A stretch of 35,698 bases of DNA from Treponema sp. GTDB taxonomy: Bacteria > Spirochaetota > Spirochaetia > Treponematales > Breznakiellaceae. Each line of letters starts with the position of its first letter. Positions within the stretch are counted from its first letter, which is position 1. Location: positions 1-35,698 of the forward strand of contig WRJO01000010.1 of the NCBI GenBank assembly GCA_009778545.1. The letters run 5' to 3'. Of the stretch, positions 6,419 to 30,062 are shown one piece after another. The notes below the pieces were generated by a model that saw nothing but the letters and a program-made list of their open reading frames with translations, did no database searches and was not told where the DNA came from. The position numbers and the translations under genes were made by a program.

Positions 6419-7399
6419 ATGAAGAAATTTTTTTGCTTCGCGGCGGCGCTGTTCCTGGCGGGAATGGCGATTTCATGCAAAAAGGCGGATAGCACAAGTG
6501 TAATCATTTACACGAGCACTGAGGATTTCCGCACCGAGCACATGCAGGAACTGCTCAAGGAACAATTCCCCAACTACGACATTACCCTGCAGGTGCTGTC
6601 CACCGGAAACCACGCGGCGAAACTCAAGGCGGAAGGGACGCAAACCGAGGCGGACATCATTCTGAATCTGGAAACCGGCTATCTGGAAGGCCTGCAGGAT
6701 ATTATGGCGGACCTTTCTGGATACAACATATCCGAATTTCTGCCGGAGATGATTCCTGCATCCAAACGTTTCCTGCCCTGGGACAAATCTTCCGGGGCCA
6801 TTGTGATCAACCAATCCAAACTGGAAATGCTGGGGCTTCCAATCCCCTATTCCTACCAGGATCTGCTGAGTCCCGTATATAAAGGACTCATCTCCATGCC
6901 GAATCCCAAAACATCCGGCACGGGCTATATGTTTCTGGTCAGCCTGATCAACGCCTGGGGCGAGGACGCGGCTTTTGAATACTTTGATCGCCTTGCGGAA
7001 AATATTCTGCAATTCACCACTTCCGGCTCCGGCCCGGTAAATGCGCTGATCCAGGGCGAAGTTGCCATCGGCCTGGGCATGACCCTGACCGCCGTCAACG
7101 CCATCAACACCCGAGGCGTTCCGCTGGAACTGCTGTACTTCGCCGAGGGAGCGCCGAGCATTACCACCAGCTTTGGAATCATCAAGGGGAAGGAAACCAG
7201 ACCGGTAGTGAAAGAAGTTTTTGAATTTGCCATGACAAAGCTGGTAAAGGACGACAAGGAACTGTACTGCCCGGAGCCGGTCATGGTGAACCAGATCAAT
7301 ACCATCGCCAACTATCCCAGGGACATCTCCTATGCCAACATGGACGGCGTGTACGATCTGCCCCTGAAAGAACGGCTTCTGGAAAAGTGGAGATATTGA
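6419..7399 (+). CDS. ABC transporter substrate-binding lipoprotein (Fe3+/aminoethylphosphonate type)
   Basis: Extracytoplasmic binding protein of 326 residues. A lipoprotein signal (MKKFFCFAAALFLAGMAISC, Cys20) is followed by a two-lobed periplasmic-binding fold that opens with SVIIYTSTEDFR. This is characteristic of the FbpA/PotD/PhnS group, which binds ferric iron, polyamines or 2-aminoethylphosphonate. The C-terminal lobe has NPKTSGTGYMFLVSLI and IGLGMTLTAVNA. The ATG is preceded by GGAGGAGA at ideal spacing. It is the first gene of a plus-strand set with the ATPase, permease, cytidylyltransferase and two polymer or lipid-modifying enzymes. The downstream CTP-dependent enzyme makes an amino-alcohol phosphate or phosphonate a reasonable guess for the substrate, but no ligand residues were assigned. 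Confidence 0.88.
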   Translation: MKKFFCFAAALFLAGMAISCKKADSTSVIIYTSTEDFRTEHMQELLKEQFPNYDITLQVLSTGNHAAKLKAEGTQTEADIILNLETGYLEGLQDIMADLSGYNISEFLPEMIPASKRFLPWDKSSGAIVINQSKLEMLGLPIPYSYQDLLSPVYKGLISMPNPKTSGTGYMFLVSLINAWGEDAAFEYFDRLAENILQFTTSGSGPVNALIQGEVAIGLGMTLTAVNAINTRGVPLELLYFAEGAPSITTSFGIIKGKETRPVVKEVFEFAMTKLVKDDKELYCPEPVMVNQINTIANYPRDISYANMDGVYDLPLKERLLEKWRY

Positions 7400-7488
7400 G
7401 GGAATCAACGAATGACACGAATGAACGCGAATAAACCAAGGATTAGCCTTCGTTGAGAAATATCCAAAAAATCAGGAGGGCGAGGGTA
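7400..7488. repeat. Spacer with short direct and inverted repeats
   Basis: Between the binding protein and the ATPase, CGAATGA-like units recur (ACGAATGACACGAATGAACG). The octamer TCAACGAA (7405-7412) is matched by its reverse complement at 7449-7456. The pair could form a weak stem around a 36-nt loop. It could set the ratio of binding protein to ATPase and permease by slowing transcription or stabilising the upstream RNA, which is common in ABC operons, but it is not strong enough for a firm call. Confidence 0.35.
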
Positions 7489-8259
7489 TTGGTCAAGCTG
7501 GAAATTCAGAATCTTACCCATGTCTATAACCGGCAGGAGGTGCTTCACGATCTGAACTTTGCCGTAAACGACGGGGAGTTTCTCTCGATTCTGGGCCCTT
7601 CCGGCTGCGGCAAAACGACGATTCTGCGGATTCTGATCGGCCTCTTGCCGCCAACGTCGGGGCGGATCATCAAAGACGGCATCGACATTACCGGCCTGCC
7701 TGCGTCAAAGCGCAACATGGGAATCGTCTTTCAGAACTACGCCCTGTTTCAGAATATGAGCGTGCTTGGCAATGTGCAATACGCGCTGAAATTCAACAGG
7801 GAGCTGAAGGACCGTTCGCGGGAAATCGCGGAAAACATTATTGGACATGTGGGCTTAAGCGAACACATCGGCAAAAAGCCCTGGAAGCTTTCCGGCGGCC
7901 AGCAGCAGCGGGTCGCCATCGCCCGGACGCTGGCCTGCAACCCGGAAATCATTCTCTTTGACGAGCCGATGTCCGCGCTGGATGCGGCGACGCGGCTGTC
8001 GCTGCGCAGCGAGATAAAACGCATACAGAAGCAGTTTCGTACCACCATGATCTACATAACCCACGACCAGGAAGAGGCATTTGCCCTTTCCGACCGCATC
8101 ATGGTGATGGATCACGGAATGATTCAGCAATTGGACTCGCCCGATGCGATTATTGCCAATCCTGCCAATGACTATATCCGTGAATTTGTTATCGAAAACC
8201 TCCGCATAAAAATCGATTCGCTGGCCAGATACATCCGGCCGGGGGCGGTGCCGCAATGA
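7489..8259 (+). CDS. ABC transporter ATP-binding protein
   Basis: Energises the importer encoded around it. Walker A is GPSGCGKTT (residues 36-44), the Q-loop lies in GIVFQNYALFQNMSV, the signature is LSGGQQQRVAIARTL, Walker B plus D-loop is IILFDEPMSALD, and the switch His is in YITHDQEEAFALSDR. The protein is 256 residues and lacks the long C-terminal TOBE domain of PotA/MalK. The start is chosen as TTG 7489, because AGGAGGG (7474-7480) lies eight bases before it and the protein then begins VKLEIQNLTHVYN as in the family; an upstream in-frame TTG at 7453 has no ribosome binding site. The stop overlaps the permease ATG (ATGA). Confidence 0.95.
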   Translation: MVKLEIQNLTHVYNRQEVLHDLNFAVNDGEFLSILGPSGCGKTTILRILIGLLPPTSGRIIKDGIDITGLPASKRNMGIVFQNYALFQNMSVLGNVQYALKFNRELKDRSREIAENIIGHVGLSEHIGKKPWKLSGGQQQRVAIARTLACNPEIILFDEPMSALDAATRLSLRSEIKRIQKQFRTTMIYITHDQEEAFALSDRIMVMDHGMIQQLDSPDAIIANPANDYIREFVIENLRIKIDSLARYIRPGAVPQ

Positions 8260-9872
8260 GCGCTGCGGCAGGAGTTATTCGGCATTATTCAGACAGCCGA
8301 TCGTACCTGATAAAGCTGATCCTGGGAATATTTCTCTTTATTGCCATAATTCTCCCGTTGGGAACAATGCTCCTGAACATGACCGTTTCGGACATTTCCG
8401 CCGTTTTGCGAATGCCGAGGTTCAGGGAATCGCTTTTCAATTCATTCTGCGCTGCAGCGGCGGCCACGGTCATTTCCATCGTTCTTGCGTGGGGCTTTGC
8501 CCTCTCTGTTTTCCGTTCCAATCTGCGCTTCCGGGAAATGTTTTCGGTTTTTGTCACCCTGCCCATGCTCATCCCGTCCATTTCCCACGGCATGGGACTC
8601 GTGCTGCTATTGGGGGCGAATGGAATAATTACCCGTATCTTCGGTTTGTCCGGCACGGTATATGGCTTTCACGGCATTGTATTGGGATCGATTTTTTATG
8701 CGTTTCCCGTGGCGTTCCTCATGCTTGCGGACATCCTAAAATACGAGGACGGTTCTCCGTACGAGGCCGCCGAAGTGCTGGGGATTCCCCGGAAGAACCA
8801 GTTCTTTTCAATTACTTTTCCCTATCTGCGAAAACCCCTCATCTCGGTGGTTTTTGCGGTGTTTACCCTGATCTTTACCGATTACGGCGTTCCTCTGATG
8901 GTCGGCGGAAGGTTCATAACCCTGCCGGTGCTGATGTACCAGGAGGTAATAGGCCTTTTGAATTTCAGCCGGGGCAGCGTGATCGGATCGTTCCTCCTTA
9001 TTCCGGCAGTTGTCGCATTTTTGTTTGATGTCCTTAACCGCGACCGGGCGAATCAGGGGTTTGTCACTCATGAAAGGGTTAGAACGGAGAACAGGCTGCG
9101 GGATGCTGCCGCAGGTGGTTATGTGCTATTGACATGCTTCATCACCGCCCTGCCGGTAGCGGTTTTTGCCCTCCTAACTTTTATCAACAGCTATCCGGTG
9201 GACATGACCCTGTCGTTCCGCAACGCCGCAAGAACGATGAACATGGGCGCGGGGCGCTACTTCGCCAATTCGATTATCATCGCCGTCTGGGTTTCGGTTT
9301 TGGGAACGATCGTTTCATGGTTCACCGCTTATTTTACCGCCCGAATACCGGGCAAGTCTTCGCGGGTACTGCACCTTATTTCAATTACATCGCTGGCAAT
9401 TCCGGGACTGGTTCTGGGGCTTTCCTACGTGCTTTTTTTCAAAGGATCATTCATCTACGGCAGCCTTGCCATGCTGATCCTCGTTAACACGATTCACTTT
9501 ATGGCCTCTCCCTATCTTATGGCGTATAACTCTCTGGGAAAACTCAATATCAACCTTGAAGACGTAGGCCGCACGCTGGGCGTTGGCCGCTTCCGCATTA
9601 TCCGCGACGTGCTGATCCCCCAGACCAGATTGACCATTCTGGAAATGCTCTCCTACTTTTTTGTCAATTCCATGATGACCATTTCCGCAGTATCTTTTTT
9701 AAGCACCGTGCGGAACCGGCCTGTTTCCCTGATGATCACCCAGTTCGAGGCGCAGCTTTTCCTTGAGGGGGCGGCGTTTGTTTCCATCATGATTCTTGGC
9801 TGCAACCTGATCGTAAAATTCGCCGTTTATGCTGTCACCAAAATATATAACAGAAAAGGCGGACTCCAGTGA
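8256..9872 (+). CDS. ABC transporter permease, two-domain FbpB-like
   Basis: Inner-membrane channel of 538 residues, with two fused binding-protein-dependent permease domains and about twelve membrane helices. Each half has an EAA-type coupling loop: EAAEVLGIPRKNQFFSITFP in the first, DVGRTLGVGRFRIIRDVLIP in the second. The two-in-one design is usual for the ferric iron and 2-aminoethylphosphonate importers. The ATG overlaps the ATPase stop (ATGA). Its own stop overlaps the GTG start of the next gene (GTGA), so the cytidylyltransferase is translationally tied to the transporter. That coupling is the main argument that the transported molecule feeds the enzyme. Confidence 0.93.
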   Translation: MSAAAGVIRHYSDSRSYLIKLILGIFLFIAIILPLGTMLLNMTVSDISAVLRMPRFRESLFNSFCAAAAATVISIVLAWGFALSVFRSNLRFREMFSVFVTLPMLIPSISHGMGLVLLLGANGIITRIFGLSGTVYGFHGIVLGSIFYAFPVAFLMLADILKYEDGSPYEAAEVLGIPRKNQFFSITFPYLRKPLISVVFAVFTLIFTDYGVPLMVGGRFITLPVLMYQEVIGLLNFSRGSVIGSFLLIPAVVAFLFDVLNRDRANQGFVTHERVRTENRLRDAAAGGYVLLTCFITALPVAVFALLTFINSYPVDMTLSFRNAARTMNMGAGRYFANSIIIAVWVSVLGTIVSWFTAYFTARIPGKSSRVLHLISITSLAIPGLVLGLSYVLFFKGSFIYGSLAMLILVNTIHFMASPYLMAYNSLGKLNINLEDVGRTLGVGRFRIIRDVLIPQTRLTILEMLSYFFVNSMMTISAVSFLSTVRNRPVSLMITQFEAQLFLEGAAFVSIMILGCNLIVKFAVYAVTKIYNRKGGLQ

Positions 9873-10762
9873 ATCTGACGCGAACCCAGTTTAACGTACT
9901 GGTACTTCTGGAACGGGAACAGAATAAAAACCTGACCCGGCGGGATATTGCCTGTGTGACAGGCCTTTCGCCCGGGACGGTAAATAAAACGCTTTCCCAT
10001 CTGAGCGAAAGCGGCCTGATAAAAAACAACGGCCTGAGCGCTGCGGGGTATAAAGCCCTGGAGCCGTACCGCGTCAGACGTGCGGTTTTCGTCGCCGCCG
10101 GTTTTGGATCGCGGCTGGTTCCCATTACGCTTAACACGCCCAAGCCGCTGGTTCGCGTAAAGGGAGTGCGTATTATCGACACGCTGCTTGATGCGGTATG
10201 CGCTGCCGGCATTGAAGAAATTTTTATTGTCCGGGGATATTTCGGCGAGCAGTTCGATCAATTAAAATACAAATACCCAAGGATTCAGTTTCTGGAAAAC
10301 CCCCTGTACAACGAATCCAACAACATCTCTTCGATGATGTGCGCCCGCTTTCTGCTGCAGAATGCATATGTGCTGGAATCGGACCTGCTGCTCAACAAGG
10401 GCAGCCTGATAAGCAAATACCAGTACGCAAGCAACTACCTGGGCGTTCCAACCGAACGAAGCGACGACTGGTGCTTTGAAACAAAAGGCGGGATCATAAC
10501 CAAGGTACAGGTCGGCGGGCGCAACTGCCATCACATGTTCGGCATTTCCTACTGGAACCAGGCCGACGGCGCGAAGCTCGCCGATCACATCAAGCAGGTG
10601 TACGAAATGCCCGGCGGCAAGGAACGCTACTGGGACCTGGTTCCGCTGGAATACTTTATCAGGCACTATGCCGTAGAGGTGCGGGAATGTTCCTTTGAAG
10701 ACATCATAGAAGTCGATACGTTTAACGAGCTGAAAAATCTGGATGATACCTACCGGGTATAG
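9869..10762 (+). CDS. Winged-helix domain fused to LicC-like cytidylyltransferase
   Basis: Residues about 1-65 form a winged helix-turn-helix (RDIACVTGLSPGTVNKTLSHLSESGLIKNNGL). From about residue 72 on there is a nucleotidyltransferase of the LicC kind: AAGFGSRLVPITLNTPKPL is the GxGxR...PK nucleotide signature, followed by NPLYNESNNISSMMCAR, ESDLLLN, GISYWN, YWDLVPLEYF and IIEVDTFNEL. These match the CTP:phosphocholine cytidylyltransferase of pneumococci block by block. The related PntC of treponemes activates 2-aminoethylphosphonate. Predicted product: a CDP-linked choline, ethanolamine or aminoethylphosphonate. GTG start overlaps the permease stop. The HTH could make it a substrate-sensing regulator of its own operon. 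Substrate unproven. Confidence 0.85.
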   Translation: MNLTRTQFNVLVLLEREQNKNLTRRDIACVTGLSPGTVNKTLSHLSESGLIKNNGLSAAGYKALEPYRVRRAVFVAAGFGSRLVPITLNTPKPLVRVKGVRIIDTLLDAVCAAGIEEIFIVRGYFGEQFDQLKYKYPRIQFLENPLYNESNNISSMMCARFLLQNAYVLESDLLLNKGSLISKYQYASNYLGVPTERSDDWCFETKGGIITKVQVGGRNCHHMFGISYWNQADGAKLADHIKQVYEMPGGKERYWDLVPLEYFIRHYAVEVRECSFEDIIEVDTFNELKNLDDTYRV

Positions 10763-10806
10763 CCGGGCACTTGACAACAGCTATTGTGACGGACAATACT
10801 GTCTGA

Positions 10807-12060
10807 ATGAATCTCCCGCCGCTCTATATCGATCCCGGTACGGGAAGCATGCTTTTCACCATTGTTATTGGAGCGACGGCGGCAGTTTTTTTTGTATTCC
10901 GTGCGCTGGTCATTAAGGCAAAGGTCTTTTTTTCCGGCGGCAGGGCAAAACAAGGAGTGCAAAATACATTTGTCATTTATGCCGAAGACAAGCGTTATTG
11001 GACTCTTTTTAAACCAATAGCAGAAGAATTTGAAAAACGCGCAATCGAACTGCTGTATTTAACATCTTCTCCCGACGATCCGGTTTTTGATGCCGGTTAT
11101 CAAAGCATTAAGGCGGAGTGTTTGGGCGAAGGCAACAAAGCCTTTGCCCGGATCAATTTTCTTTCCGCCGACTTTGTTCTGTCCACCACGCCGGGGCTCG
11201 ATGTGTATCAGTGGAAGCGATCAAAAACAGTCAGGCACTACAGCCACATTTTCCATTCCGCCGATGAACCGGTCAAGTACGAATTGTTCGGCATTGACTA
11301 CTACGATTCAATTCTGGTAACCGGCGGCGAGCATCAGAAAAACGACATACGGAAACTTGAACAGGCGCGCAGGCTGCCGGAAAAACAGGTTGTCACCGTC
11401 GGATGCCCGTATCTGGATGAATACGCCGGAAAAATAGCGCAGCTGCCGAAAGAGGAAAATCATATTTTCACCGTCCTTGTTTCGCCGTCATGGGGCGCAT
11501 CCGCCCTGTTGTCCCGCTACGGCGAAAAGCTGCTCGATCCCCTGGCGGAAACCGGCTGGCGAATCATCGTGCGTCCGCATCCGCAGTCGCTGTCGGCTGA
11601 AAAGGAAATGATTGATTGGCTTTCTGGCAAATACCGGGAAAATCCCAATCTGGAATGGGACTATAGCCGCGAAAATATTATTTCACTTAACAAAGCGGAT
11701 ATTATGATCTCCGATTTTTCAGGGATTATGCTTGATTACATGTTTCTGCGGAACAAGCCGGTTATCTATGTGTCGCAGAACATGGATTTGCGTCCCTATG
11801 ACGCCCATATACTCTATGCTGATCAGGAAAAAATGTGGACGTTCAGAACGTTGAGAAAAGCAGGAATTGAGCTGCGACCCGAGCTATTTGACGATTTGCC
11901 GGGGTTTATCGCCAAAATCTCGGACGATGCATCCCTGGAACAGGCAATAGATGCAGTAAAAGCCGAAGCCTGGCATTACCGTGGCGAAGCAGGAAAACGT
12001 GTTGCCGATTTTATGATAGAAACTGTTAATGCAATCCATAACGGAGAACCTTTGGCATGA
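10807..12060 (+). CDS. CDP-glycerol glycerophosphotransferase-like protein
   Basis: Likely moves a phospho-alcohol from a CDP donor onto a glycan or lipid at the inner face of the membrane. The 417 residues start with the motif YIDPGTGS and one membrane helix (about 14-37). A TagB/TagF-like (Glyphos_transf) domain follows, with HYSHIFHSAD, VTVGCPYLDEY, VLVSPSWGASAL, IIVRPHPQS and ISDFSGIMLDYMFLRNKPVIY. The last matches the conserved SD-S---DY block of teichoic acid polymerases. The ATG at 10807 has no clear Shine-Dalgarno, so it may depend on read-through from the gene 44 bp upstream. The stop overlaps the next ATG. With a CDP-producing enzyme upstream, donor and transferase would be made together; which CDP compound is used is unknown. 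Confidence 0.82.
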   Translation: MNLPPLYIDPGTGSMLFTIVIGATAAVFFVFRALVIKAKVFFSGGRAKQGVQNTFVIYAEDKRYWTLFKPIAEEFEKRAIELLYLTSSPDDPVFDAGYQSIKAECLGEGNKAFARINFLSADFVLSTTPGLDVYQWKRSKTVRHYSHIFHSADEPVKYELFGIDYYDSILVTGGEHQKNDIRKLEQARRLPEKQVVTVGCPYLDEYAGKIAQLPKEENHIFTVLVSPSWGASALLSRYGEKLLDPLAETGWRIIVRPHPQSLSAEKEMIDWLSGKYRENPNLEWDYSRENIISLNKADIMISDFSGIMLDYMFLRNKPVIYVSQNMDLRPYDAHILYADQEKMWTFRTLRKAGIELRPELFDDLPGFIAKISDDASLEQAIDAVKAEAWHYRGEAGKRVADFMIETVNAIHNGEPLA

Positions 12061-14693
12061 TGAATTTCCTGTACACTCTTGTTATTTTTCCTGTTGAGCA
12101 AATATTAAGTTTCTGTTATGTCCTGTTTTTCCGAATTTTCAGGAGCCATGGCATTTCAATCATCGGCGTAAGCGCCGCAGTAAGCACGCTTGTTTTACCG
12201 ATTTATCTGATGGCGGAAAAGCAGCAGCAGGCTGAACGGGAAAAGCAAAAACAGATGAAGGGGGAAGTTGACAACATAAAAGCCGTTTTTAGGGGCGATA
12301 AACGGTATATGCTGCTTTCGACCCTGTACCGGCAGCATAATTACCATCCGGTTTACGCCCTTCGCAACAGCATCGATCTTTTTATCCAAATCCCTTTCTT
12401 TATAGCCGCATATCATTTTCTTCATAACCTGCCGCTGCTTAACGGACGCTCTTTTTTCCTGATAAAAGACCTGGGCGCCCCGGACGGACTTCTCTATGGA
12501 TTAAATCTCCTTCCTGTTCTGATGACGTTCATCAACTGCATTTCCGGGGCAATATACACAAAAGGGTTTCCCCTTAAAGATAAAATCCAGCTTTATGGAA
12601 TGGCGGCAGTATTTCTGGTTTTGCTCTACAATTCTCCGGCAGCTCTGGTACTGTACTGGACCTGCAATAATATATACAACCTGGTAAAAAACATTTTTTT
12701 AAAAATAAAGAACGCCAAAAGAATCATTACTGCCGCAGCTGCAATTTCTGCGGCAATATTGGCCGTGTACCTGTTCTTTTTTTACAAAAGTTCCTTTATA
12801 AGGCGTCTGTTTTTGACATGCCTTCCTGTTACCGCCCTGTTGTTTCCGGTCTGGAAACGCATTTGGAATTTTATCACGCAAAAAATTTCTGTAAAAAACA
12901 CCGCCCTGGAATTGACCGGCAGAACATTCTTTTTATCATCGCTCTCACTCTTTTTATTAATCGGCTTCGTTATTCCGTCCAACCTTATTGTTTCCGATGT
13001 TGCGGAATTTTCATTTCTTGAACACGGTTCTCCGTTGTCTTTCGTTGGTACAACGGTACTGCAATCGGCAGGCATATTACTCTGGCTTATCTGTATTTAT
13101 TTTCTGTCCAACAGGCGTGTAAGGATTATAATAACCGCTGTCTTAACTGTTGCATTAAGCACCTTTTTATTAAATACATTCATTTTTACCGGAAACTACG
13201 GCACCATGTTTCCCGATTTGGCATTCGACGGATTTACCGATGTTTCGATGAAGTTAAAAATTATTAATATAATTTCAATATTTTTGATCTGCCTTTTTAT
13301 CGCCGGTCTTTTGCTGATAAAAAAGAGAATGGTCATTCTGTCCCTGCAGGGTATTGTTGCTGCATCGCTGCTTTGTTTTGGATTTATCAATGCGGTAAAA
13401 ATTCAGGTAGGGCACAGGAAAGAGCAGCTTATCTCGGTTGAATCTTCTACAAGTCTTGAAAAAATAATAACCCTGTCACAAACAGGCAAAAATGTCCTTG
13501 TTATCGTTCTGGACATGGCTGCGCCCCGTTTTTTGCCCTACATCTTTGAAGAAAAGCCGGAATTGATTAAAAACTTCGATGGATTTGTTTTCTACCCGAA
13601 TACCGTATCATTTGGCCCCCAAACCATAATCGGAATGCCCTGTATCTTTGGCGGCTATTATTACTCTCCCCTGGAAATCCAAAAGCGGACCGGTGAATTG
13701 TTTCTGGACAAGTATTACGAATCCATGATGGTTCTGCCAAGAATTATGGCAGATGCCAATTTCCGGGTTACGGTACAGGACCAATCGGACATGGATAATT
13801 CACTGTATGATAAATATGATAATATTGATGTGCAGAATACCAAGGGAAAATATACAAGATATTTTTTGGGAGAATTCGGCGATCTCAGGCTGATGGATTA
13901 CCAAAAACAGCTTTATGCAAATTTCCTGCGTTTTTCCCTATTTAAAATCTCTCCCATGTTTTTCCGCAGAATAATTTATAATAACGGCGATTACCGTTCG
14001 GTTTTTATTGACACTGCCTATTCGCGTGCAGCAATAGGCAACTACACTTCTCTGTATTACATGCCCGACATCACGGAAGTAACAGACAAAAACGAGAATC
14101 ATTCCATATTGTTTGTCAATAACATGACTCATGTACCCGCTTTCATGGAAGCACCGGATTATGTTCCTTCAAATAATATTACCAATAAAGGGCAAGGCCC
14201 GTTTGCAAATGATGAATATTACCATTCCAACATGGCATCTTATTTGCTTCTTGCCAAATGGTTCGATTTCCTCAAAGAAAACAATGTTTATGACAATACG
14301 CGGATTATTATTGTTTCCGATCACGGAAACAATACAGTGTTCCCTGAAAGGGTTAATCTGCCGAATGGGAGAGAATTGGGGAAGCATAGCGCATTGCTCA
14401 TGGTTAAGGATTTTAATGCGAATTCTGAATTTGAGACAAATGATAGTTTCATGACCAATGCGGATGTGCCGTATATCGCAGTATCCGGGTTTGCAGAAAA
14501 GGTGATAAATCCTTTTAACGGCAAAGAACTTCCGGCAAGAGAAACAAATGATGCTACAGTAACCACAGGCGGCGGCACATCAATATTCAGCCAGAATAAA
14601 TACACCCTAAAAATAGGAAAAAACGAATGGCTCCATGTTCGGGACAATATCTATGACCCGGCAAACTGGAGCTCACCTACCATGGAAAAATAG
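12057..14693 (+). CDS. YidC/Oxa1-like membrane domain fused to sulfatase/phosphotransferase domain
   Basis: A single 878-residue frame in three parts. Residues about 1-220 match the five-helix YidC/Oxa1 core: ISIIGVSAAVSTLVLPIYLM, a charged hairpin (MAEKQQQAEREKQKQ), LYRQHNYHPV, LFIQIPFFIAAY and SPAALVLYWTCNNIYNL. Residues about 225-455 add further membrane helices. Residues about 479-860 are an alkaline-phosphatase-superfamily domain with D486 (VIVLD), probable nucleophile T523 (PQTIIGMP), H692 (NMTHVP), D755-H756 (SDHGN) and H777 (GKHS). LtaS, OpgB and EptA of this superfamily transfer phosphoglycerol or phosphoethanolamine outside the membrane. The groove arginine essential in YidC is Ser here, so insertase work is doubtful. 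ATG overlaps the previous stop. Confidence 0.83.
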   Translation: MMNFLYTLVIFPVEQILSFCYVLFFRIFRSHGISIIGVSAAVSTLVLPIYLMAEKQQQAEREKQKQMKGEVDNIKAVFRGDKRYMLLSTLYRQHNYHPVYALRNSIDLFIQIPFFIAAYHFLHNLPLLNGRSFFLIKDLGAPDGLLYGLNLLPVLMTFINCISGAIYTKGFPLKDKIQLYGMAAVFLVLLYNSPAALVLYWTCNNIYNLVKNIFLKIKNAKRIITAAAAISAAILAVYLFFFYKSSFIRRLFLTCLPVTALLFPVWKRIWNFITQKISVKNTALELTGRTFFLSSLSLFLLIGFVIPSNLIVSDVAEFSFLEHGSPLSFVGTTVLQSAGILLWLICIYFLSNRRVRIIITAVLTVALSTFLLNTFIFTGNYGTMFPDLAFDGFTDVSMKLKIINIISIFLICLFIAGLLLIKKRMVILSLQGIVAASLLCFGFINAVKIQVGHRKEQLISVESSTSLEKIITLSQTGKNVLVIVLDMAAPRFLPYIFEEKPELIKNFDGFVFYPNTVSFGPQTIIGMPCIFGGYYYSPLEIQKRTGELFLDKYYESMMVLPRIMADANFRVTVQDQSDMDNSLYDKYDNIDVQNTKGKYTRYFLGEFGDLRLMDYQKQLYANFLRFSLFKISPMFFRRIIYNNGDYRSVFIDTAYSRAAIGNYTSLYYMPDITEVTDKNENHSILFVNNMTHVPAFMEAPDYVPSNNITNKGQGPFANDEYYHSNMASYLLLAKWFDFLKENNVYDNTRIIIVSDHGNNTVFPERVNLPNGRELGKHSALLMVKDFNANSEFETNDSFMTNADVPYIAVSGFAEKVINPFNGKELPARETNDATVTTGGGTSIFSQNKYTLKIGKNEWLHVRDNIYDPANWSSPTMEK

Positions 14694-14695
14694 CA

Positions 14696-15541
14696 TCACT
14701 TTAGAACCAGGCGCGTCCCAAACTGATCGATCAGCACCAGCAGGCCCAAAGCCCCGGTGTAGATCGCAAAGCCCCACAGCGATTTTTCCCGCACAATTTT
14801 CAGCATCAGGCGCACGGCGAAAAAGCCGGTGACGGCGGCGCTTGCCGTGCCCGCGACAATCGCCGCCATGCCGATGCCCCCGCCGACTGACGCGCCGCCG
14901 CCCTTTGCAAATTTCGCCAGCTCTAAAACCAAAGCGCCGAGTATCGCCGGGATCGACAGGATAAACGAAAAGCGGGCGGCAAAATCCCTGTCCAGCCTGC
15001 GGAACAGCGCGCCGGACAGCGTCGCGCCGGAACGGGACACGCCGGGTATTACGGCGACGGCCTGCAAAAAACCGATGACCAGCGCGTCCAGCCAGTTCAT
15101 GGTATTTGCGGTTTTTCCACCGGCATCATCGGCATTGCCAGCAGCATCAGAGGCGCGCCTTGCCCGCCGGGACAATAATTCGGCGGATGCCAGCAGCGCC
15201 GCTGTAGCTAAAAAGGCAAAGCCCAGGAACCTGCCCGATTCAAAAGCCGCCTCAATGTGCTTTTTTAATACAAGGGCAAAGATCACAGCCGGAACAGTGG
15301 CGATTATCAAATATGCGGTAAGGGGCTGGAACAATTTTTTCAGAATGGAGAGAACGTCCTTCCACAAGACCGCGAAAACGGCGGCAAGCGTCCCGATATG
15401 CAGCATGATGTCAAATAGCATCGTCGGTTCGGAAACCCCGAATATTTTTTGCAGAAGAACCAGATGCCCCGAACTGGAAACCGGCAGAAATTCAGTCAGC
15501 CCCTGAACCGCCCCCAATACTATTGCAGCAATTACGTCCAT
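14696..15541 (-). CDS. uppP: Undecaprenyl-diphosphatase UppP (BacA)
   Basis: Membrane phosphatase that recycles undecaprenyl pyrophosphate to the monophosphate lipid carrier for wall and surface glycan synthesis; also gives bacitracin tolerance. The 281 residues have the N-terminal motif GAVQGLTEFLPVSSSGHLVL and the second active-site motif PGVSRSGATLSGALFRR, with about eight membrane helices. An Ala-rich cytoplasmic segment (RRARRASDAAGNADDAGG) sits in the middle and is longer than usual. The gene faces the YidC-fusion gene, their stops being 2 bp apart with no visible terminator between. It is divergent from the gamma-glutamyl ligase gene. Confidence 0.96.
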   Translation of the reverse strand: MDVIAAIVLGAVQGLTEFLPVSSSGHLVLLQKIFGVSEPTMLFDIMLHIGTLAAVFAVLWKDVLSILKKLFQPLTAYLIIATVPAVIFALVLKKHIEAAFESGRFLGFAFLATAALLASAELLSRRARRASDAAGNADDAGGKTANTMNWLDALVIGFLQAVAVIPGVSRSGATLSGALFRRLDRDFAARFSFILSIPAILGALVLELAKFAKGGGASVGGGIGMAAIVAGTASAAVTGFFAVRLMLKIVREKSLWGFAIYTGALGLLVLIDQFGTRLVLK

Positions 15542-15614: not shown

Positions 15615-16814
15615 ATGAGAGTTATCGGAACAAGGGCATTGGGCCTGCGGACGCCCATAATCCGCGAGTCTGACGATCTGGCGGCCATCATCTGCCAGTC
15701 CGTAAAAGACGCGATGGAGCATGAAAAAGTCCGCATCAACGACGGCGACATCATCGGCATTACCGAAGCCGTGCTGGCCCGCTCGCAGGGCAATTATGCT
15801 TCTGTTGACCATATCGCTGCCGATGTGCGCGAAAAATTTTCCGGCGGACACGTCGGCGTGGTTTTTCCGATTCTGAGCAGAAACCGATTCGCCATGCTGC
15901 TGCGGGGCATCGCGCGGGGCGCGGAAAAAGTAACCGTTCAATTAAGCTATCCGGCGGACGAAGTCGGCAACCAGCTTATTTCCTGGGAAGACGTGGACGA
16001 CAGAAACCTGAATCCGTATTCGGACTGTTTGAGCGAAGGCGAATACCGCCGCCTTTTCGGTGAAACAAAGCACCGGTTTACCGGCATCGACTATATTTCG
16101 TATTACAAATCTCTCGGCGGCAATATCGAAATAATCCTCTGCGCCGATCCGAAACGGATTCTTGAATATGCCGATCAGGTTATCGCTGCGGACATTCACA
16201 CGCGCGCGCGGACAAAACGGGCGCTCGCCGCCGCCAGGGCGAAGAAAGTCAGCGGCCTTGACGAACTGCTGACAAAACCCGTTAAAATCGATGAAGCGGA
16301 TCCCGGCAGCGGATATAACGAGCTGTACGGATTGCTTGGCTCAAACAAGGCTACGGAGGACCATGTGAAGCTGTTCCCCCGCGACTGCGACGCTTTTGTG
16401 CAGAAAATGCAGAACGCGCTGCGGGAACTGACCGGAAAAACCGTGGAAGTGCTGGTGTACGGAGACGGCGGATTTAAGGACCCTGTCGGCGGCATATGGG
16501 AACTGGCAGATCCGGTCATAGCCCCGGCGTTCACTGCGGGATTAAAGGGAACGCCCAACGAACTGAAACTTAAATTTCTCGCCGACAATGATTTTGCCGG
16601 TCTTTCCAGGGACGAGGCGCGGGAGGCAATCGAGCGGGCGATACGGGCGAAGGCGGGGCGCGACCAGATGGGAAAGATGGAATCCGAAGGAACCACGCCG
16701 AGGCAGCTTACCGATCTTCTCGGCAGCCTCTGCGATCTGGTCAGCGGCTCGGGCGACAAAGGCACCCCCGCCGTTCTGATTCAGGGCTACTTTGACAATT
16801 ACGCAATGAAGTAG
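15615..16814 (+). CDS. CofE-like gamma-glutamyl ligase (COG1478 family)
   Basis: Resembles coenzyme F420-0:L-glutamate ligase, which adds gamma-linked glutamate using GTP. Family blocks near the N-terminus are VRINDGDIIGITEAVLARSQGNY and, further on, VLVYGDGGFKDPVGGIWELADPV and AGLKGTPNELKLKFLADND. At 399 residues it is longer than archaeal CofE (about 250). Spirochaetes are not known to make F420. The chlamydial member of the same family (FolC2) is reported to act as a folylpolyglutamate synthase, so polyglutamylation of folate or another acceptor is more likely here. The ATG sits close to a possible -10 (TATAGC) with no Shine-Dalgarno, so it may have a very short leader. Confidence 0.72.
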   Translation: MRVIGTRALGLRTPIIRESDDLAAIICQSVKDAMEHEKVRINDGDIIGITEAVLARSQGNYASVDHIAADVREKFSGGHVGVVFPILSRNRFAMLLRGIARGAEKVTVQLSYPADEVGNQLISWEDVDDRNLNPYSDCLSEGEYRRLFGETKHRFTGIDYISYYKSLGGNIEIILCADPKRILEYADQVIAADIHTRARTKRALAAARAKKVSGLDELLTKPVKIDEADPGSGYNELYGLLGSNKATEDHVKLFPRDCDAFVQKMQNALRELTGKTVEVLVYGDGGFKDPVGGIWELADPVIAPAFTAGLKGTPNELKLKFLADNDFAGLSRDEAREAIERAIRAKAGRDQMGKMESEGTTPRQLTDLLGSLCDLVSGSGDKGTPAVLIQGYFDNYAMK

Positions 16815-23502: not shown

Positions 23503-23580
23503 ATGAGACTTCGTTTCATCTTTGATTTTACATCCGGCTGTCTTTTTCGGGCGGCCGAACGAATTAAGAGGTTATCATGA
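23503..23580 (+). CDS. 25-codon small ORF coupled to first RND gene
   Basis: ATG 23503 to TGA 23578-23580 encodes 25 residues (MRLRFIFDFT... ending KRLS), one Cys at position 13, net basic. AGGGG lies four bases before the ATG, a modest ribosome site. Its stop overlaps the first RND gene's ATG (ATGA), the arrangement that favours re-initiation. A second small ORF of exactly the same length stands before the second RND gene. I do not recognise the peptide. It may be a leader that sets translation of the pump, or a small membrane or pump-associated peptide. Confidence 0.5.
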   Translation: MRLRFIFDFTSGCLFRAAERIKRLS

Positions 23581-26500
23581 GCGTTACCAAAACCATCGTT
23601 TCGAGGCCCGTTACTTTTTTGGTTATTTTTCTTCTGCTTATCGGGCTGGGTTTTTTCGCCCTTTCAAAGCTCCCCATTGATCTGTACCCCGAGATCAACC
23701 CGCCGTACCTGGTAGTTTACACGACCTATGCCGGCGCAGGGCCGGAAGAGGTGGAACGATCCCTGACCCGCCCACTGGAAGCGGTGCTGTCGGGCGTCTC
23801 GGGTCTGGATATGATAACCTCCACTTCGTACAAAGGCTCCAGCCAGGTGGTGCTGCAGTTTATTTACGGCACCGACCTCGTAGACGCTACCAATTCGATT
23901 CGGGACGTGCTGGAGCGGGTGCGCGCCTACATTCCTCCCGATGCGGACACGCCGATGATCTTCAGATACGATCCGGCGATGATCCCCATCATGAGCCTGA
24001 TGCTGACGGGAAAACGGACGCCGGAAGAGCTGCGGGAGATAGCCGAGGATATCATTGTCCCCCGCATTGAGCAGACGCCCGGAGTCGCCACCGCATCGAT
24101 AAACGGTGGCAGGGAAAAGATCATCCGCATCGAGATTCCCCAGAACCGGCTTGAAGCCTACGGTCTGACGATAATGCAGATTCAGCAGATGCTCATGGTG
24201 CAGAACATGCAGGTTGCCGCAGGAACCATCGTTGAAGAGGGAATGTCCTACATCATTACCACGATGGGGCAGTTCAGGTCGCTGGACGATATCAGGCATA
24301 CCGTAGTCTCGTACCGGGGCGGCGGCTTTACCGGTATGAGCATAGAGTACCCCCGGCAGGTGTACCTGCGCGACCTTGCCAACGTATCCGTAGGCTTCCG
24401 CGACGAGACCAGTACGGCCTTTGTAAACGGCCAGCCTGCGGTGATTATGACGGTGCAGAAACAGAGCGGCAAGAATTCCGTGCAGACGGCAAAGGACCTT
24501 AACGTGCGCCTCGAAAGGCTGAAGAGGGAAATTCCGCCGGACATCGAAATAACCGAATTGTATAACAATACCAACATTATTCAGAATTCGCTGAACCAGG
24601 TTGTAGCCGCTGCGTACTCGGGCGGCCTGCTCGCCGTGCTGATACTCTTTCTGTTCCTTCGTTCGCTCAAACCCACTTTGATCATCGGGATAAGCATTCC
24701 CGTTTCGATCATCATTACCATAATGGTAATGTACTTCTTCGGGCTTACCCTCAACCTGATGACGATGGCGGGGCTGGTGCTGGGAATAGGGATGCTGGTC
24801 GACAACTCAATCGTCATTCTGGAAAATATTTACCACTACCGGGAAAAGGGGGCAAAGCTCAAGACGGCGGCGGTGCTTGGCACATCCGAAATGATCATCG
24901 CCATTACCGCTTCAACCATTACCACCCTCTGCGTGTTCCTCCCGCTTATTATGTTCCAGGGCCTTCTGGAAATGATCGGCGAGCTGCTTGCCGGCCTTGC
25001 GTTTACCGTTTTCATTTCGATGGCAATCTCGCTGTTCACCGCCATTTTTCTCGTGCCGGTGCTTTCCAGCCGCTTTTTTCCCCTGGAGACCCGCAAACAA
25101 AAACCCCTTCGCGGCATTCTGGCAAAAATCGACGGTAAATTTGAAGGGTTCTTTGTCTGGCTGGAAAACAAGTACCGAAGGGGAGTGGCAAGGATACTCA
25201 GGCGCAAAGCCATTGTCATTATTTTCCTGCTGCTTTTATTTGTGGGGAGCATATACATGATCCCGATAATCGGCTGGCAGTTCATGCCCCAGCAGGAAGA
25301 CGACAATGTAATCATTACGGCGACCCTTCCGGTGGGAACGCCGCTGCAGGAAACCGAGGCAATATTGAAATCGCTGCAGACGCTGGTTGAAGGAGAAATA
25401 TACGGGTATGAGCGGCTGATTATTCGAACCGGCGGTGGCGATTTTATGGGACTGGGCGTGGGCAGCGCCAGCAACACCGGTTCCCTGCGGATCAACCTGG
25501 TCAAATACAAAGACCGGGTAATGACCGCCAACCAGATGAAGGACATACTGCGGCCCCATTTCAACAACTTCCCCGGTGTTTCCTTTTCGTTCGAGGGCGG
25601 CATGGTTGCAACCATGCTGGGCGGCGGCGACGCGGTAGACATTGTCCTGCGTACCGAAGACCTTGAGAAGGGCAAGGCAATGGGGGAAAAGATCGCCGCC
25701 CTGCTTCGGGAGCGGCTTTCTGATGCCGTTACCGAGCCGCAGGTCGATTTGAAAGACGGCCTGCCCCAGATCGAGATCGCCCTTGACCGCGAGAAGATGT
25801 ATGCGCTGGGGCTGAACACCTATGCCATCGGCAATGAAATAAAGGCCTCGGTTGACGGTGTTGTCGCCACCCGCTATAAATCAGGCAAAAGGGATTACGA
25901 CGTTGTTTTGATCCTTGCCGAAGCGGATCGCAGCACCCGGCCCGCGCTGGACAGCATCTTTATTACCAGCCAGATAGCCGGCAGGGTTCCCCTGTCCAGC
26001 TTTGTGTATTACGAGGAGGGAACCGGCCCGCTGACGATCCGCCGCGAAAACCAGAGCCGCGTCATCCACATTACCGCGGCGGCAAAGCCCGGCACCAAGG
26101 CCAACGTGATACAGGCCAGGGTGGAGGCGCTCATCCAGGCCGAGATCCCCATTGAAGACGACGTAATAATCGATTTTGCGGGCGACAATGCCGAGATGGA
26201 ACGAATGTCGTCGCGCTTTGTCCTGATATGCGCCGTGGCAATATTCCTGGTGTTCGGCGTAATGGCAAGCCTTTTTGAATCGTTCCGCGATCCGTTCATC
26301 ATCATCTTTACGGTTCCGCTCTCGGTAATCGGCATTGTGGCGATGTATCTGATCACCGGCGCGATTTTCAACATACTCACCATCGTGGGCCTTTTGGTGC
26401 TGATCGGCATCATCGTCAACAACGGCATCGTGCTGGTTGACTACACCAACCTTCTTCGCAAGCGGGGCTATTCCCTGAACGAAGCCTGCATCGAAGCCGC

Positions 26501-26726
26501 CGGCAGCCGGCTGCGCCCGATCCTGATGACCACCCTCACCTCAATCCTCGGCCTGGTGCCGATGGCGTTTTTCCCCGGCGAAGGGTCGGAGATGGTGGCA
26601 CCCATCGGCATGACCGTCCTCGGCGGCCTTTCCATCGGCACGCTGATGACCCTGTTCCTCATGCCGTCAATGTACGCCGCAATTAATAAACGTTCCGCAG
26701 AGCGGGAAGCGCCGCTTGAAGATTAA
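23577..26726 (+). CDS. RND efflux transporter, inner-membrane pump (first copy)
   Basis: Proton-driven pump of the AcrB/MdtB superfamily, 1049 residues. The layout is the usual one: a first membrane helix (FLVIFLLLIGLGFFALSKLPIDLYPEINPP), a large periplasmic domain, six helices, a second periplasmic domain and a second helix group. The helix 4 motif is GIGMLVDNSIVILENIYHYRE, so the first of the two proton-relay aspartates is kept and the second is Asn, as in many non-proteobacterial pumps. Other marks are PGVATASINGGREKIIRIEI and IIVNNGIVLVDYTNLLRKRG. Start ATG overlaps the small ORF stop. The next pump gene is a close paralogue. Confidence 0.95.
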   Translation: MSVTKTIVSRPVTFLVIFLLLIGLGFFALSKLPIDLYPEINPPYLVVYTTYAGAGPEEVERSLTRPLEAVLSGVSGLDMITSTSYKGSSQVVLQFIYGTDLVDATNSIRDVLERVRAYIPPDADTPMIFRYDPAMIPIMSLMLTGKRTPEELREIAEDIIVPRIEQTPGVATASINGGREKIIRIEIPQNRLEAYGLTIMQIQQMLMVQNMQVAAGTIVEEGMSYIITTMGQFRSLDDIRHTVVSYRGGGFTGMSIEYPRQVYLRDLANVSVGFRDETSTAFVNGQPAVIMTVQKQSGKNSVQTAKDLNVRLERLKREIPPDIEITELYNNTNIIQNSLNQVVAAAYSGGLLAVLILFLFLRSLKPTLIIGISIPVSIIITIMVMYFFGLTLNLMTMAGLVLGIGMLVDNSIVILENIYHYREKGAKLKTAAVLGTSEMIIAITASTITTLCVFLPLIMFQGLLEMIGELLAGLAFTVFISMAISLFTAIFLVPVLSSRFFPLETRKQKPLRGILAKIDGKFEGFFVWLENKYRRGVARILRRKAIVIIFLLLLFVGSIYMIPIIGWQFMPQQEDDNVIITATLPVGTPLQETEAILKSLQTLVEGEIYGYERLIIRTGGGDFMGLGVGSASNTGSLRINLVKYKDRVMTANQMKDILRPHFNNFPGVSFSFEGGMVATMLGGGDAVDIVLRTEDLEKGKAMGEKIAALLRERLSDAVTEPQVDLKDGLPQIEIALDREKMYALGLNTYAIGNEIKASVDGVVATRYKSGKRDYDVVLILAEADRSTRPALDSIFITSQIAGRVPLSSFVYYEEGTGPLTIRRENQSRVIHITAAAKPGTKANVIQARVEALIQAEIPIEDDVIIDFAGDNAEMERMSSRFVLICAVAIFLVFGVMASLFESFRDPFIIIFTVPLSVIGIVAMYLITGAIFNILTIVGLLVLIGIIVNNGIVLVDYTNLLRKRGYSLNEACIEAAGSRLRPILMTTLTSILGLVPMAFFPGEGSEMVAPIGMTVLGGLSIGTLMTLFLMPSMYAAINKRSAEREAPLED

Positions 26727-26736
26727 GGAGGTAAAA

Positions 26737-26814
26737 ATGGAGGTTTGTTTAGTGTTTGTTGCAGTGATCCGGCCGCCGGGCAGGGCGGCTGGATGTTCCG
26801 GGAGGCTGGCATGA
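26737..26814 (+). CDS. 25-codon small ORF coupled to second RND gene
   Basis: ATG 26737 to TGA 26812-26814 encodes 25 residues (MEVCLVFVAVIRPPG... ending GRLA) with Cys at 4 and 20. A full nine-base Shine-Dalgarno, TAAGGAGGT (26724-26732), whose TAA is the stop of the first pump gene, lies at ideal distance before its ATG. This is the strongest ribosome site in the operon. The TGA overlaps the ATG of the second RND gene at 26811 (ATGA). Length equals that of the small ORF before the first RND gene, with RAA at 16-18 and RL at 23-24 shared. Function unknown. Confidence 0.62.
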   Translation: MEVCLVFVAVIRPPGRAAGCSGRLA

Positions 26815-29800: not shown

Positions 29801-30062
29801 GTTCTTCCCCGGCGAAGGGTCGGAACTGGTAGCGCCCATCGGCAAAACCGTCCTCGGCGGCCTTTCTTTCGGCACGCTGATGACCCTGTTCCTCATGCCG
29901 ACCGTGTATGCGATTTTCCACAGAAGGTCCGAGGCCCGCGCCGCCCGCGCCCATGCGCGGCGCGAAATGATTGCCGCCGGCGAGGGCGGCCGCGCCAGAC
30001 AGAAAAAACCCCAGAGCGATATTTTTGCGACACAATCAGGAGGAGACCATGATACGCATTGA
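26811..30062 (+). CDS. RND efflux transporter, inner-membrane pump (second copy)
   Basis: Paralogue of the preceding pump, 1083 residues, with long identical stretches (for example around LGIGMLVDNSIVILENIYHY and VNNGIVLVDYTNL) and highly similar DNA. Domain order is the same. It differs by a basic, Ala/Arg-rich C-terminal tail (about the last 40 residues: RSEARAARAHARREM...). The start is taken as ATG 26811, which follows GGGAGG and overlaps the small ORF stop; ATG 26817 is an alternative, and an upstream TTG at 26745 is not supported. One adaptor and one TolC serve two pumps, as in MdtBC, so a heterotrimer is plausible. Its 3' end overlaps the PII-like gene by 14 bp. Confidence 0.94.
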   Translation: MSMAKAVVSRPTTTFIIFALLIGLGFFAMANLPIDLYPEINPPFLVVFTSYPGAGPEEVERNVTRRLEAVLSGASGMEKITSTSSKGSSMVVLQFTFGTDLVDATNSIRDSLERIRNYLPTDADTPLIIRFDPAMMPIMSLMITGNRTPEELREIAEDTIVPRIEQTPGVATASVNGGREKIIRIEIPQSRLEAYGLTVTQIQQMLMVQNMQVSAGTIVEEGMSYILTTMGEYSSLDEIRNTVISYKGGGFTGVEIESPIQVKLRDLASVFDGYRDETSTVYINGQPAVMMMVQKQSGKNSVQTAKDLRVRLKRLTTEIPPDIKMTELFNTTDIIENSLNQVISTAYSGGLLAILILFIFLRSLKPTLIIGISIPVSIIITMMLMYFFGLTLNLMTMAGLVLGIGMLVDNSIVILENIYHYREKGAKLTTASVLGTSEMVVAIAASTVTTLCVFLPLVMFKGLLEMAGELFAGLAFTVVISLAISLFTAVFLVPVLSSHYLPLVTRKQKPLEGPLKNIDRKFEGFFIWLENNYRRGVRYVLRHKAAVILILFLMFAGSIVLVPIIGWEFMPQQEDDNVSISATLPVGTPLQETEAVLKRLQVLVEKEITEYKRLVLRTGGGGFMGMGSGSASNSGSLRINLVDYKDRTMSANEIKDLLRPHFNDFPGVSFSFSSGFGGAMMGGGNAVDITLRTEDLGKGKVMAERIAALLKEKLSDVVTEPQVDLKDGLPQIEIVLDRERMYALGLNTYTVGNEIKAAVDGITATRFKSGGKDHDVILILAEADRSTRPALDHIFLNSQMSGRVPLSSFVHYQEGTGPLTISRENQSRVIHVTAGAKPGTKTNTLQARVEHLVKAEIPIEDDVIIEYGGANADMLKMFRRFVLICIVAIFLVFGVMASLFESFRDPFIIIFTIPLSMIGIVAIYLITGTIFNVLTAVGLLVLIGVIVNNGIVLVDYTNLLCKRGYSLNEACVEAAGNRLRPILMTTLTTILGLVPMAFFPGEGSELVAPIGKTVLGGLSFGTLMTLFLMPTVYAIFHRRSEARAARAHARREMIAAGEGGRARQKKPQSDIFATQSGGDHDTH

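Follow-up and report, generated by a model that had tools for sequence, protein, structure and literature searches.

Related systems

Insertases of the YidC/Oxa1/Alb3 family, such as B. halodurans YidC (3wo7), E. coli YidC and SpoIIIJ, are built on a five-TM core with a cytoplasmic CH1-CH2 hairpin, with LP in the first core helix and LYW..N in the last; all of these are shared by the fusion protein described here. It was reported that E. coli YidC scrambles lipids in vitro, and simulations showed that Oxa1-family proteins do so via the insertion groove (PMC10491306). Another group of membrane proteins, which includes LtaS, EptA, MCR-1, PptA and PbgA, combines a multi-TM segment with an outward alkaline phosphatase (AP)-superfamily domain carrying a Thr nucleophile and metal ligands. 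PbgA/YejM has lost phosphotransfer. TagB/TagF-type CDP-glycerol polymerases (Cps3D, 8qoy; Bcs3-type, 8a0c) contain a PF04464 GT-B domain with RPHP and SDFSG...FDY motifs. In the Pnt pathway, CMP-AEP is formed from 2-aminoethylphosphonate (AEP) by PntC; the later steps were described as unknown by Rice et al. (2019), who mentioned LicD-like transferases, and the terms YidC, sulfatase and alkaline phosphatase are absent from the text of that paper (PMC6697681).

The operon and the fusion protein

The window, i.e. the whole stretch of 35,698 nucleotides that was analysed, holds an operon in the order AEP-type ABC importer, LicC/PntC-like cytidylyltransferase, TagF-like protein and fusion:

6419..7399, + strand: ABC transporter substrate-binding protein (nearest NCBIfam PhnS2, under cut-off)
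7453..8259, + strand: ABC transporter ATPase (nearest NCBIfam PhnT2, under cut-off)
8256..9872, + strand: ABC transporter permease (nearest NCBIfam PhnU2 (AEP), under equivalog cut-off)
9869..10762, + strand: winged-helix plus LicC/PntC-like CTP:phosphocholine/AEP cytidylyltransferase (1jyk and 6pd1 matches)
10807..12060, + strand: TagB/TagF-like (PF04464) GT-B transferase with N-terminal helix motif YIDPGTGSMLF, the conserved partner of the fusion
12057..14693, + strand: YidC-like/AP-superfamily fusion protein, 878 aa (ORF, Pfam, relatives, AlphaFold)

Genes overlap by 4 bp at 8256/8259, 9869/9872 and 12057/12060, the last being the junction of the TagF-like gene and the fusion. The best solved match of the cytidylyltransferase is the phosphocholine LicC 1jyk (E 5e-25), and T. 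denticola PntC 6pd1 also matches (E 6e-14); like the transporter, the protein scores under the NCBIfam equivalog cut-offs. Its VLESDL motif contains Glu, as T. denticola PntC does at E104, in place of the Asp found in S. pneumoniae LicC; at the second specificity position, by contrast, Asp (YWD) is retained as in phosphocholine LicC. The operon unites a LicC-type enzyme with an AP-type transferase. For bacterial species, no evidence of Lic-1 and AP-type (PptA) pathways occurring together was reported (PMC10434233).

It had been proposed from the sequence that one frame joins a YidC-type core to an AP-superfamily domain, and indeed the ORF is unbroken and both Pfam domains match. 60KD_IMP gives 80.9 bits on residues 32-215 (gathering score 35) and Sulfatase (PF00884) 26.2 bits on residues 479-759 (gathering score 25); TIGR03592 (yidC_oxa1_cterm) reaches 74.1 bits, under its 84.3 cut-off. 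The following features lie within the protein:

12150..12701, + strand: YidC/Oxa1-fold core, residues 32-215 (Pfam 60KD_IMP; Foldseek 3wo7_A)
12183-12185, + strand: groove residue Ser43, replacing Arg/Lys (alignment columns)
12363-12365, + strand: always-basic R103 in the YidC-like core (alignment columns)
12714..13436, + strand: membrane segment, residues 220-460, with some seven additional helices (AlphaFold helices; loop charges)
13467..14690, + strand: AP-superfamily domain, residues 471-878, predicted extracytoplasmic (Pfam, alignment, Foldseek, VIA-align)
13623-13625, + strand: T523, putative nucleophile of the AP domain (by analogy with LtaS/EptA)

An AlphaFold model made with a 106-row alignment (pLDDT 93.1, pTM 0.89) confirmed an Oxa1-type fold for the N-terminal core, which in Foldseek matched B. 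halodurans YidC 3wo7_A (target TM 0.72; rmsd 3.4 over 215 columns). Residues 476-878 matched AP-superfamily enzymes in VIA-align with Z ~20; the matches listed there are AP-domain enzymes only, and the absence of YidC chains among them does not count against the Foldseek match. By the positive-inside rule the AP domain is predicted to lie outside, behind the TM helices, although loop 242-250 is basic despite its outside placement in this topology.

Relatives and the TagF-like partner

Full-length relatives (query 1-873) were found in scores of genomes, closed ones included, which rules out an assembly chimera. They occur in about half of the genomes of the host's order, in other spirochaetes and in a few Bacillota; examples are T. 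denticola ATCC 35405, a cultivated model, T. bryantii and Schwartzia. The search for the same fusion and its neighbours also returned the TagF-like partner repeatedly: at 52 of 69 loci its gene lies no more than two genes from the fusion on the same strand. The partner carries the RPHP and SDFSG...FDY motifs in its PF04464 GT-B domain; unlike the described polymerases, it is short, has an invariant YIDPGTGSMLF membrane helix and is tied to the YidC-like fusion. Its first helix has 10 invariant columns in 55. Split copies in one genome (G064) were considered as natural unfused genes and rejected: at both junctions read, the open frame goes on in another phase, one of them at an A8 tract, so these copies look frameshifted or phase-variable. 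The fusion is a large enzyme carried by many treponemes and related gut bacteria; no description of such a fusion was found in a search confined to the open-access literature.

Conserved residues were counted in an alignment of 106 full-length relatives. D486, T523, H692, D755 and H756 are invariant in all 106, as are K784, D785 and D803, which were absent from the list given in the sequence-only reading. That list had been taken to contain every expected ligand; its sixth member, H777, is not conserved (Tyr in 47, Phe in 32 and His in only three of the 106) and is ruled out as a metal ligand. By analogy with LtaS/EptA, D486, D755 and H756 are probably metal ligands and T523 the nucleophile. 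A sulfatase with formylglycine is disfavoured, the nucleophile position being Thr in 106/106 and not the sulfatase Cys/Ser. The fusion differs from the LtaS/EptA/MCR-1/PptA/PbgA group in its extra N-terminal YidC-like core, in the number of TM helices (about seven) after that core, in having Asp rather than Glu as first ligand, and in its genetic partner, which is TagF-like and accompanied by nucleotide-activated donor genes.

The YidC-like core

Ser43, five residues ahead of P48, occupies the position of the groove Arg of B. halodurans YidC; a Ser there had been suggested from the sequence. The replacement is family-wide: the position is S in 51, T in 32 and N in 23 of the 106 relatives and basic in none. 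The canonical YidC of the host genome has Lys there, and three canonical YidCs from Lachnospiraceae have N or Y. The loss of Arg had been read as evidence of lost insertase function, but this argument does not hold. In E. coli YidC, neutralisation of R366 does not prevent complementation when position 517 holds W, F, S or N, although S. mutans YidC2 has W at the equivalent place and yet its Arg is essential (PMC8920935). Since the neutralised E. coli protein complements and the Lachnospiraceae YidCs lack the Arg, its loss is no proof of a non-insertase.

The fusion family further departs from the insertases ahead of TM3, where it has three additional residues and a position 103 that is always basic (R/K), and in its invariant YWT-N motif, its own invariant polar residues in the core and the attached TM and AP enzyme. 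Conserved polar residues of the core are R103, N150, T157, N160 and N204; W201 is invariant. In the tree the family was separated from the sampled canonical YidCs by a split of 100/100 and a branch of 2.69 changes per column. The host genome has a canonical YidC in addition to the fusion, and one was found in 13 of 13 genomes checked, ruling out the fusion as a substitute for the housekeeping protein. The earlier proposal that the fold was reused rather than inserting proteins is upheld in part, by the fold, the family-wide charge loss, the canonical YidC and the gene context, and not by the Arg argument. The context, with its TagF-like transferase, AEP importer, CMP-AEP/LicC-type activation and glycosyltransferases, is in keeping with reuse in phospho-/phosphonyl-transfer rather than general protein insertion.

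Phosphonate genes and unfused cassettes

CMP-AEP-forming genes adjoin the fusion in several relatives. In genomes with a fusion among the matches listed, 21 of 49 pntC genes lie within 15 kb of a fusion and 26 of 49 on the same contig, some at distances of only 42-88 bp. In T. denticola, whose PntC is identical to PDB 6PD1, some 20 kb separate pntC from the fusion and a TagF-like gene, all on one strand. At three loci (L044, L062, L099) a homologous LicC gene is found together with those for PEP mutase and Ppd. Counted against the proposed pathway are many genomes with pntC and without a fusion. Phosphonate, LicC or Phn genes were seen at only 23 of 69 loci, within the DNA examined around each. 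Linkage to Ppm, Ppd and PntC was seen in a subset of relatives and in both unfused cassettes; the window itself has only the LicC/PntC-like and AEP-type importer genes, and no PEP mutase was found in the host genome (68% complete). LicD, IspD and heptose genes occur at other fusion loci; heptose-pathway genes are present at 30 of 69, so that not every locus need transfer the same group.

Two other spirochaetes (L120, L126), the clean unfused cases, encode the YidC-like domain by itself next to a TagF-like gene, in cassettes with a complete set of AEP-synthesis/CMP-AEP genes (PEP mutase, Ppd, PntC-AEPT) and a separate AP-superfamily gene, whose product belongs to another subfamily and has its own TM region. 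The stand-alone YidC-like proteins share 74% identity between the two genomes. In the tree they branch from within the fused clade, and separation of the genes may therefore be secondary.

Proposed function and alternatives

Assignment of the fusion to surface decoration is well supported. More specifically, we give roughly even odds (about 0.5) to its being a membrane phospho-/phosphonyl-transferase that decorates or helps to build a cell-surface glycoconjugate, with the YidC-like domain handling a lipid-linked donor. In the proposed sequence, the importer would take up AEP or a similar phospho-amine, and the LicC/PntC-like enzyme would use CTP to convert it to CMP-AEP (or a corresponding CDP-compound). 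From its anchor at the inner leaflet, the TagF-like GT-B protein would move the group onto a lipid acceptor, whose polar head the hydrophilic groove of the YidC-like domain may carry across the membrane or present. The outward AP domain, with Thr523 as nucleophile and metal at D486, D755 and H756, would take the group covalently and hand it to a glycan. The results above establish the architecture, the fold, the conservation of catalytic residues, the partner gene, the operon, the distinct YidC-like clade, the clustering with AEP/CMP-AEP genes and a natural unfused version, whereas we infer the substrate in this host, the acceptor, the linkage of the donor to a lipid and its flipping; as canonical YidC scrambles lipids too, the fold does not prove a lipid-moving role. 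That an Oxa1-superfamily domain has turned from insertion to a lipid flippase or presenter, linking cytosolic CMP-AEP (or CDP-alcohol) chemistry to an AP-type transferase, is put forward tentatively.

The enzyme might be of the same type while the host's group is phosphocholine, phosphoethanolamine or glycerol/alditol phosphate rather than a phosphonate. The LicC best match and the LicD, IspD and heptose genes at other loci are in keeping with this, and lipids are the probable donors from which the AP-superfamily enzyme PptA transfers phosphocholine/PE (PMC10434233). It is nevertheless somewhat unlikely, given that no choline-kinase-family match was found in the host genome (68% complete), that the adjoining transporter is AEP-type by nearest family and that LicC homologues accompany PEP mutase and Ppd at the three loci named above.

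Alternatively, the YidC-like domain may still handle proteins, as an insertase dedicated to partner membrane proteins or a dock for their assembly; a client could be the YIDPGTGSMLF helix, which would keep the cytosolic transferase beside the outward AP domain. That helix is conserved far beyond what an anchor needs, the two genes are neighbours at most loci and in the unfused cassettes, and the invariant W201 recalls the W517 with which R366-less E. coli YidC works. This reading is judged unlikely, as canonical YidC is present in every genome checked and the very long branch and private polar residues exceed what a general insertase would need.

It is improbable that the AP domain is a hydrolase or phosphate sensor through which the fusion regulates envelope synthesis. 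PbgA/YejM is indeed the first Foldseek match of the model, and phosphonate monoester hydrolases align with Z 19-21, but the full Thr/Asp/Asp-His set is invariant in 106 sequences and the gene clusters with activating enzymes and the TagF-like transferase. An earlier alternative, that the YidC-like part merely folds or anchors its own C-terminal domain in cis, would suit the fused state of nearly every relative, but is largely refuted and very improbable because in L120 and L126 that part is a conserved separate gene beside a phosphatase gene of a different subfamily.

Significance

The occurrence of the fusion beside genes for making or importing surface phosphonates suggests that an insertion machine has been reused for building the cell surface, and the family offers a concrete candidate for the post-CMP-AEP enzymes of bacterial surface phosphonate tailoring. 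If the proposal is true, it would fill in the export and transfer steps that are missing from phosphonyl tailoring, with a system encoded as a fusion in some genomes and as separate genes in others. The insertase fold would then also have a version specialised in lipid-linked chemistry, a point of interest in view of the recently reported scrambling of lipids by insertases.

Structure of the fusion protein

12057-14693, + strand: YidC-like/AP fusion gene, 878 aa, frame unbroken

The Pfam family 60KD_IMP was matched to residues 32-215 of the fusion (80.9 bits against a cut-off of 35) and Sulfatase to residues 479-759 (26.2 bits against a cut-off of 25), and a phmmer search of the PDB matched the first part to YidC chains (3wo7, E 3e-8). 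An AlphaFold model computed from an alignment of 106 relatives had a pLDDT of 93.1 and a pTM of 0.89. Its N-terminal core was paired by Foldseek with 3wo7_A, the YidC of B. halodurans (TM 0.72 on target, rmsd 3.4), and the Oxa1-like fold that the sequence-only reading had proposed for the first 220 residues is thereby supported. The C-terminal part matched EptA, MCR-1, PbgA, LtaS and phosphonate monoester hydrolases in Foldseek, and VIA-align gave a Z of about 20 for residues 476-878. Alignment-averaged loop charges agree with a cytoplasmic C1 hairpin and an outward-facing AP domain, though loop 242-250 is basic on the predicted outer side. The G+C content of the gene (window 12000-14000) is 39-42% against 49-55% in the surroundings, which may reflect later acquisition or membrane-protein codons.

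Eight residues are invariant in 106 full-length relatives, namely D486, T523, H692, D755, H756, K784, D785 and D803. The first five had been proposed as ligand positions from the sequence; H777, proposed with them, is variable (Tyr 47, Phe 32, His 3). R103, which is Arg or Lys in all 106, sits directly before the third core helix, inside a three-residue insertion relative to YidC. The nucleophile position of the fusion is occupied by Thr, as in LtaS/EptA and unlike in formylglycine sulfatases, which have Cys or Ser there. The AP domain probably performs phospho- or phosphonyl transfer at the cell surface (probability about 0.75).

The operon and its surroundings

The fusion gene ends a single-strand operon (6419-14693) with 4-bp overlaps at three junctions, in the order substrate-binding protein, ATPase, permease, LicC/PntC-like enzyme, TagF-like protein and fusion. 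The NCBIfam models nearest to the importer genes are the 2-aminoethylphosphonate (AEP) transporters PhnS2/T2/U2, all below the equivalog cut-offs. The LicC/PntC-like cytidylyltransferase (1jyk, E 5e-25; 6pd1, E 6e-14) carries an N-terminal MarR-type winged helix (window 9869-10762) that recurs in relatives such as that of Schwartzia succinivorans (L099), and may act as a pathway activator that regulates itself. The TagF-like protein was modelled as a GT-B fold (pLDDT 91), near the capsule polymerase 8a0c. It starts with an invariant membrane motif, YIDPGTGSMLF (window 10807-10860 and relatives), conserved far beyond an anchor's needs.

A convergent uppP/bacA (undecaprenyl-diphosphatase) gene at 14696-15541 (-) ends 3 bp past the fusion gene. 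A coenzyme F420-0:gamma-glutamyl ligase-family gene (PF01996) is present at 15615-16814, although F420 is not expected in a treponeme-type genome. Two tandem RND-efflux pump genes (23577-26726 and 26745-30062; 1049 and 1105 aa), closely similar in sequence, are preceded by TolC- and membrane-fusion-like genes.

Distribution and phylogeny

Matches at E 1e-15 were found in 222 of 394 genomes of the order, a few of them being ordinary YidC, and full-length copies are often tandem, two to four per locus. At E 1e-25, the family occurs in 68 of 296 genomes drawn from Spirochaetota; only two of 299 from Bacillota carry it, one being the draw's centre genome. Named carriers include T. bryantii B25, Schwartzia succinivorans DSM 10502 and Lachnospiraceae XBD2001, together with a genome encoding a PntC identical to that of PDB 6PD1 (T. 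denticola); no member was found in a 1.1-Mb genome (G013) from the T. denticola family. A genome of the T. denticola group holds a tandem array (L118:10709-13413 and L118:14718-17580) in which two copies read as split genes, the frame resuming in another phase, in one case at an A8 tract; phase variation, as known for pptA, is possible.

In a 46-core tree, canonical YidC was split from all YidC-like sequences, whether fused or stand-alone, by a 100/100 branch of length 2.69. A canonical YidC was also present in the window's own genome and in 12 of 12 genomes checked through loci.

Gene neighbourhoods

Of 69 loci with five or more genes, 52 have a TagF-like gene on the same strand within two genes of the fusion, 23 carry phosphonate, LicC or Phn genes and 30 carry heptose-activation genes. 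At one locus (L074), a PntC-AEP transaminase gene stops 7 bp ahead of the fusion start. Genomes with listed fusions hold 49 pntC genes, of which 26 are on the contig of a fusion gene and 21 are no more than 15 kb from one, some at 42-88 bp; the remaining pntC genes belong mostly to fragmented drafts. The fusion is absent from many pntC-bearing genomes. In T. denticola, about 20 kb separate pntC from the TagF-like gene and fusion (L116 10890-14851); the stretch is rich in glycosyltransferase genes and the strand is the same. Whole-cell 31P NMR signals of this species have been cited as consistent with phosphonates (in PMC6697681). AEP is rather likely to be the group transferred in the window genome.

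The strongest functional evidence for the family is provided by two unfused cassettes, because there the unfused YidC-like protein travels with CMP-AEP synthesis, a TagF-like transferase and an AP-type enzyme. The first (L120) reads PEP mutase, Ppd, PntC-AEPT, YidC-like (238 aa, groove Asn), TagF-like and a separate Sulfatase-family gene (607 aa, different subfamily). The second (L126) has the same six genes in two divergent blocks, with 74% identity to the first cassette in the YidC-like and 55% in the phosphatase-family protein; YLDPGSGSM replaces YIDPGTGSMLF in it. Since stand-alone sequences are nested inside the fused clade of the tree, the unfused state may be derived.

The groove arginine

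The reported loss of the groove arginine holds across homologues, residue 43 being Ser (51), Thr (32) or Asn (23) and never basic in 106 relatives. Lys occupies this position in the window genome's own canonical YidC, and every other spirochaete canonical YidC that was examined carries Lys or Arg. The position has been reported as strictly basic in YidC, yet it is Asn or Tyr in the canonical YidCs of three Lachnospiraceae (L139, L140, L141). The groove Arg of E. coli YidC is dispensable with a hydrophilic or aromatic residue 517, Trp included, whereas S. mutans YidC2, which has Trp at the corresponding site, requires the Arg but can do without it once Asn or Ser stands there (PMC8920935). The corresponding residue of the fusion family, in an LYW motif, is an invariant Trp (Trp201). 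Loss of the Arg thus leaves the insertase question undecided, and the earlier argument for a lost insertase role leaned on it too hard.

Proposed function

LicC/PntC enzymes work in the cytosol and produce nucleotide-activated donors (PMC10434233; PMC6697681), whereas PptA and other AP-type transferases are thought to use lipid donors (PMC10434233). Both types occur in one operon, and therefore a nucleotide-to-lipid step and a membrane-crossing step are needed. Transfer from nucleotide to lipid would fall to the TagF-like protein, and passage across the membrane to the YidC-like domain. The domain fits the latter step, since lipid scrambling by E. coli YidC has been observed in vitro and simulations place it in the insertion groove (PMC10491306); lipid handling is nonetheless proposed tentatively. 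The main competing reading makes the YidC-like domain a dock for the invariant YIDPGTGSMLF helix with which the TagF-like protein begins.

No description of the fusion, its TagF-like link or its phosphonate-tailoring link was found in the literature searched. Each of the two parts, AP-type transferase and YidC fold, is of a known kind; on a further possible reading, the Oxa1 fold would have been put to a use of a wholly new category.
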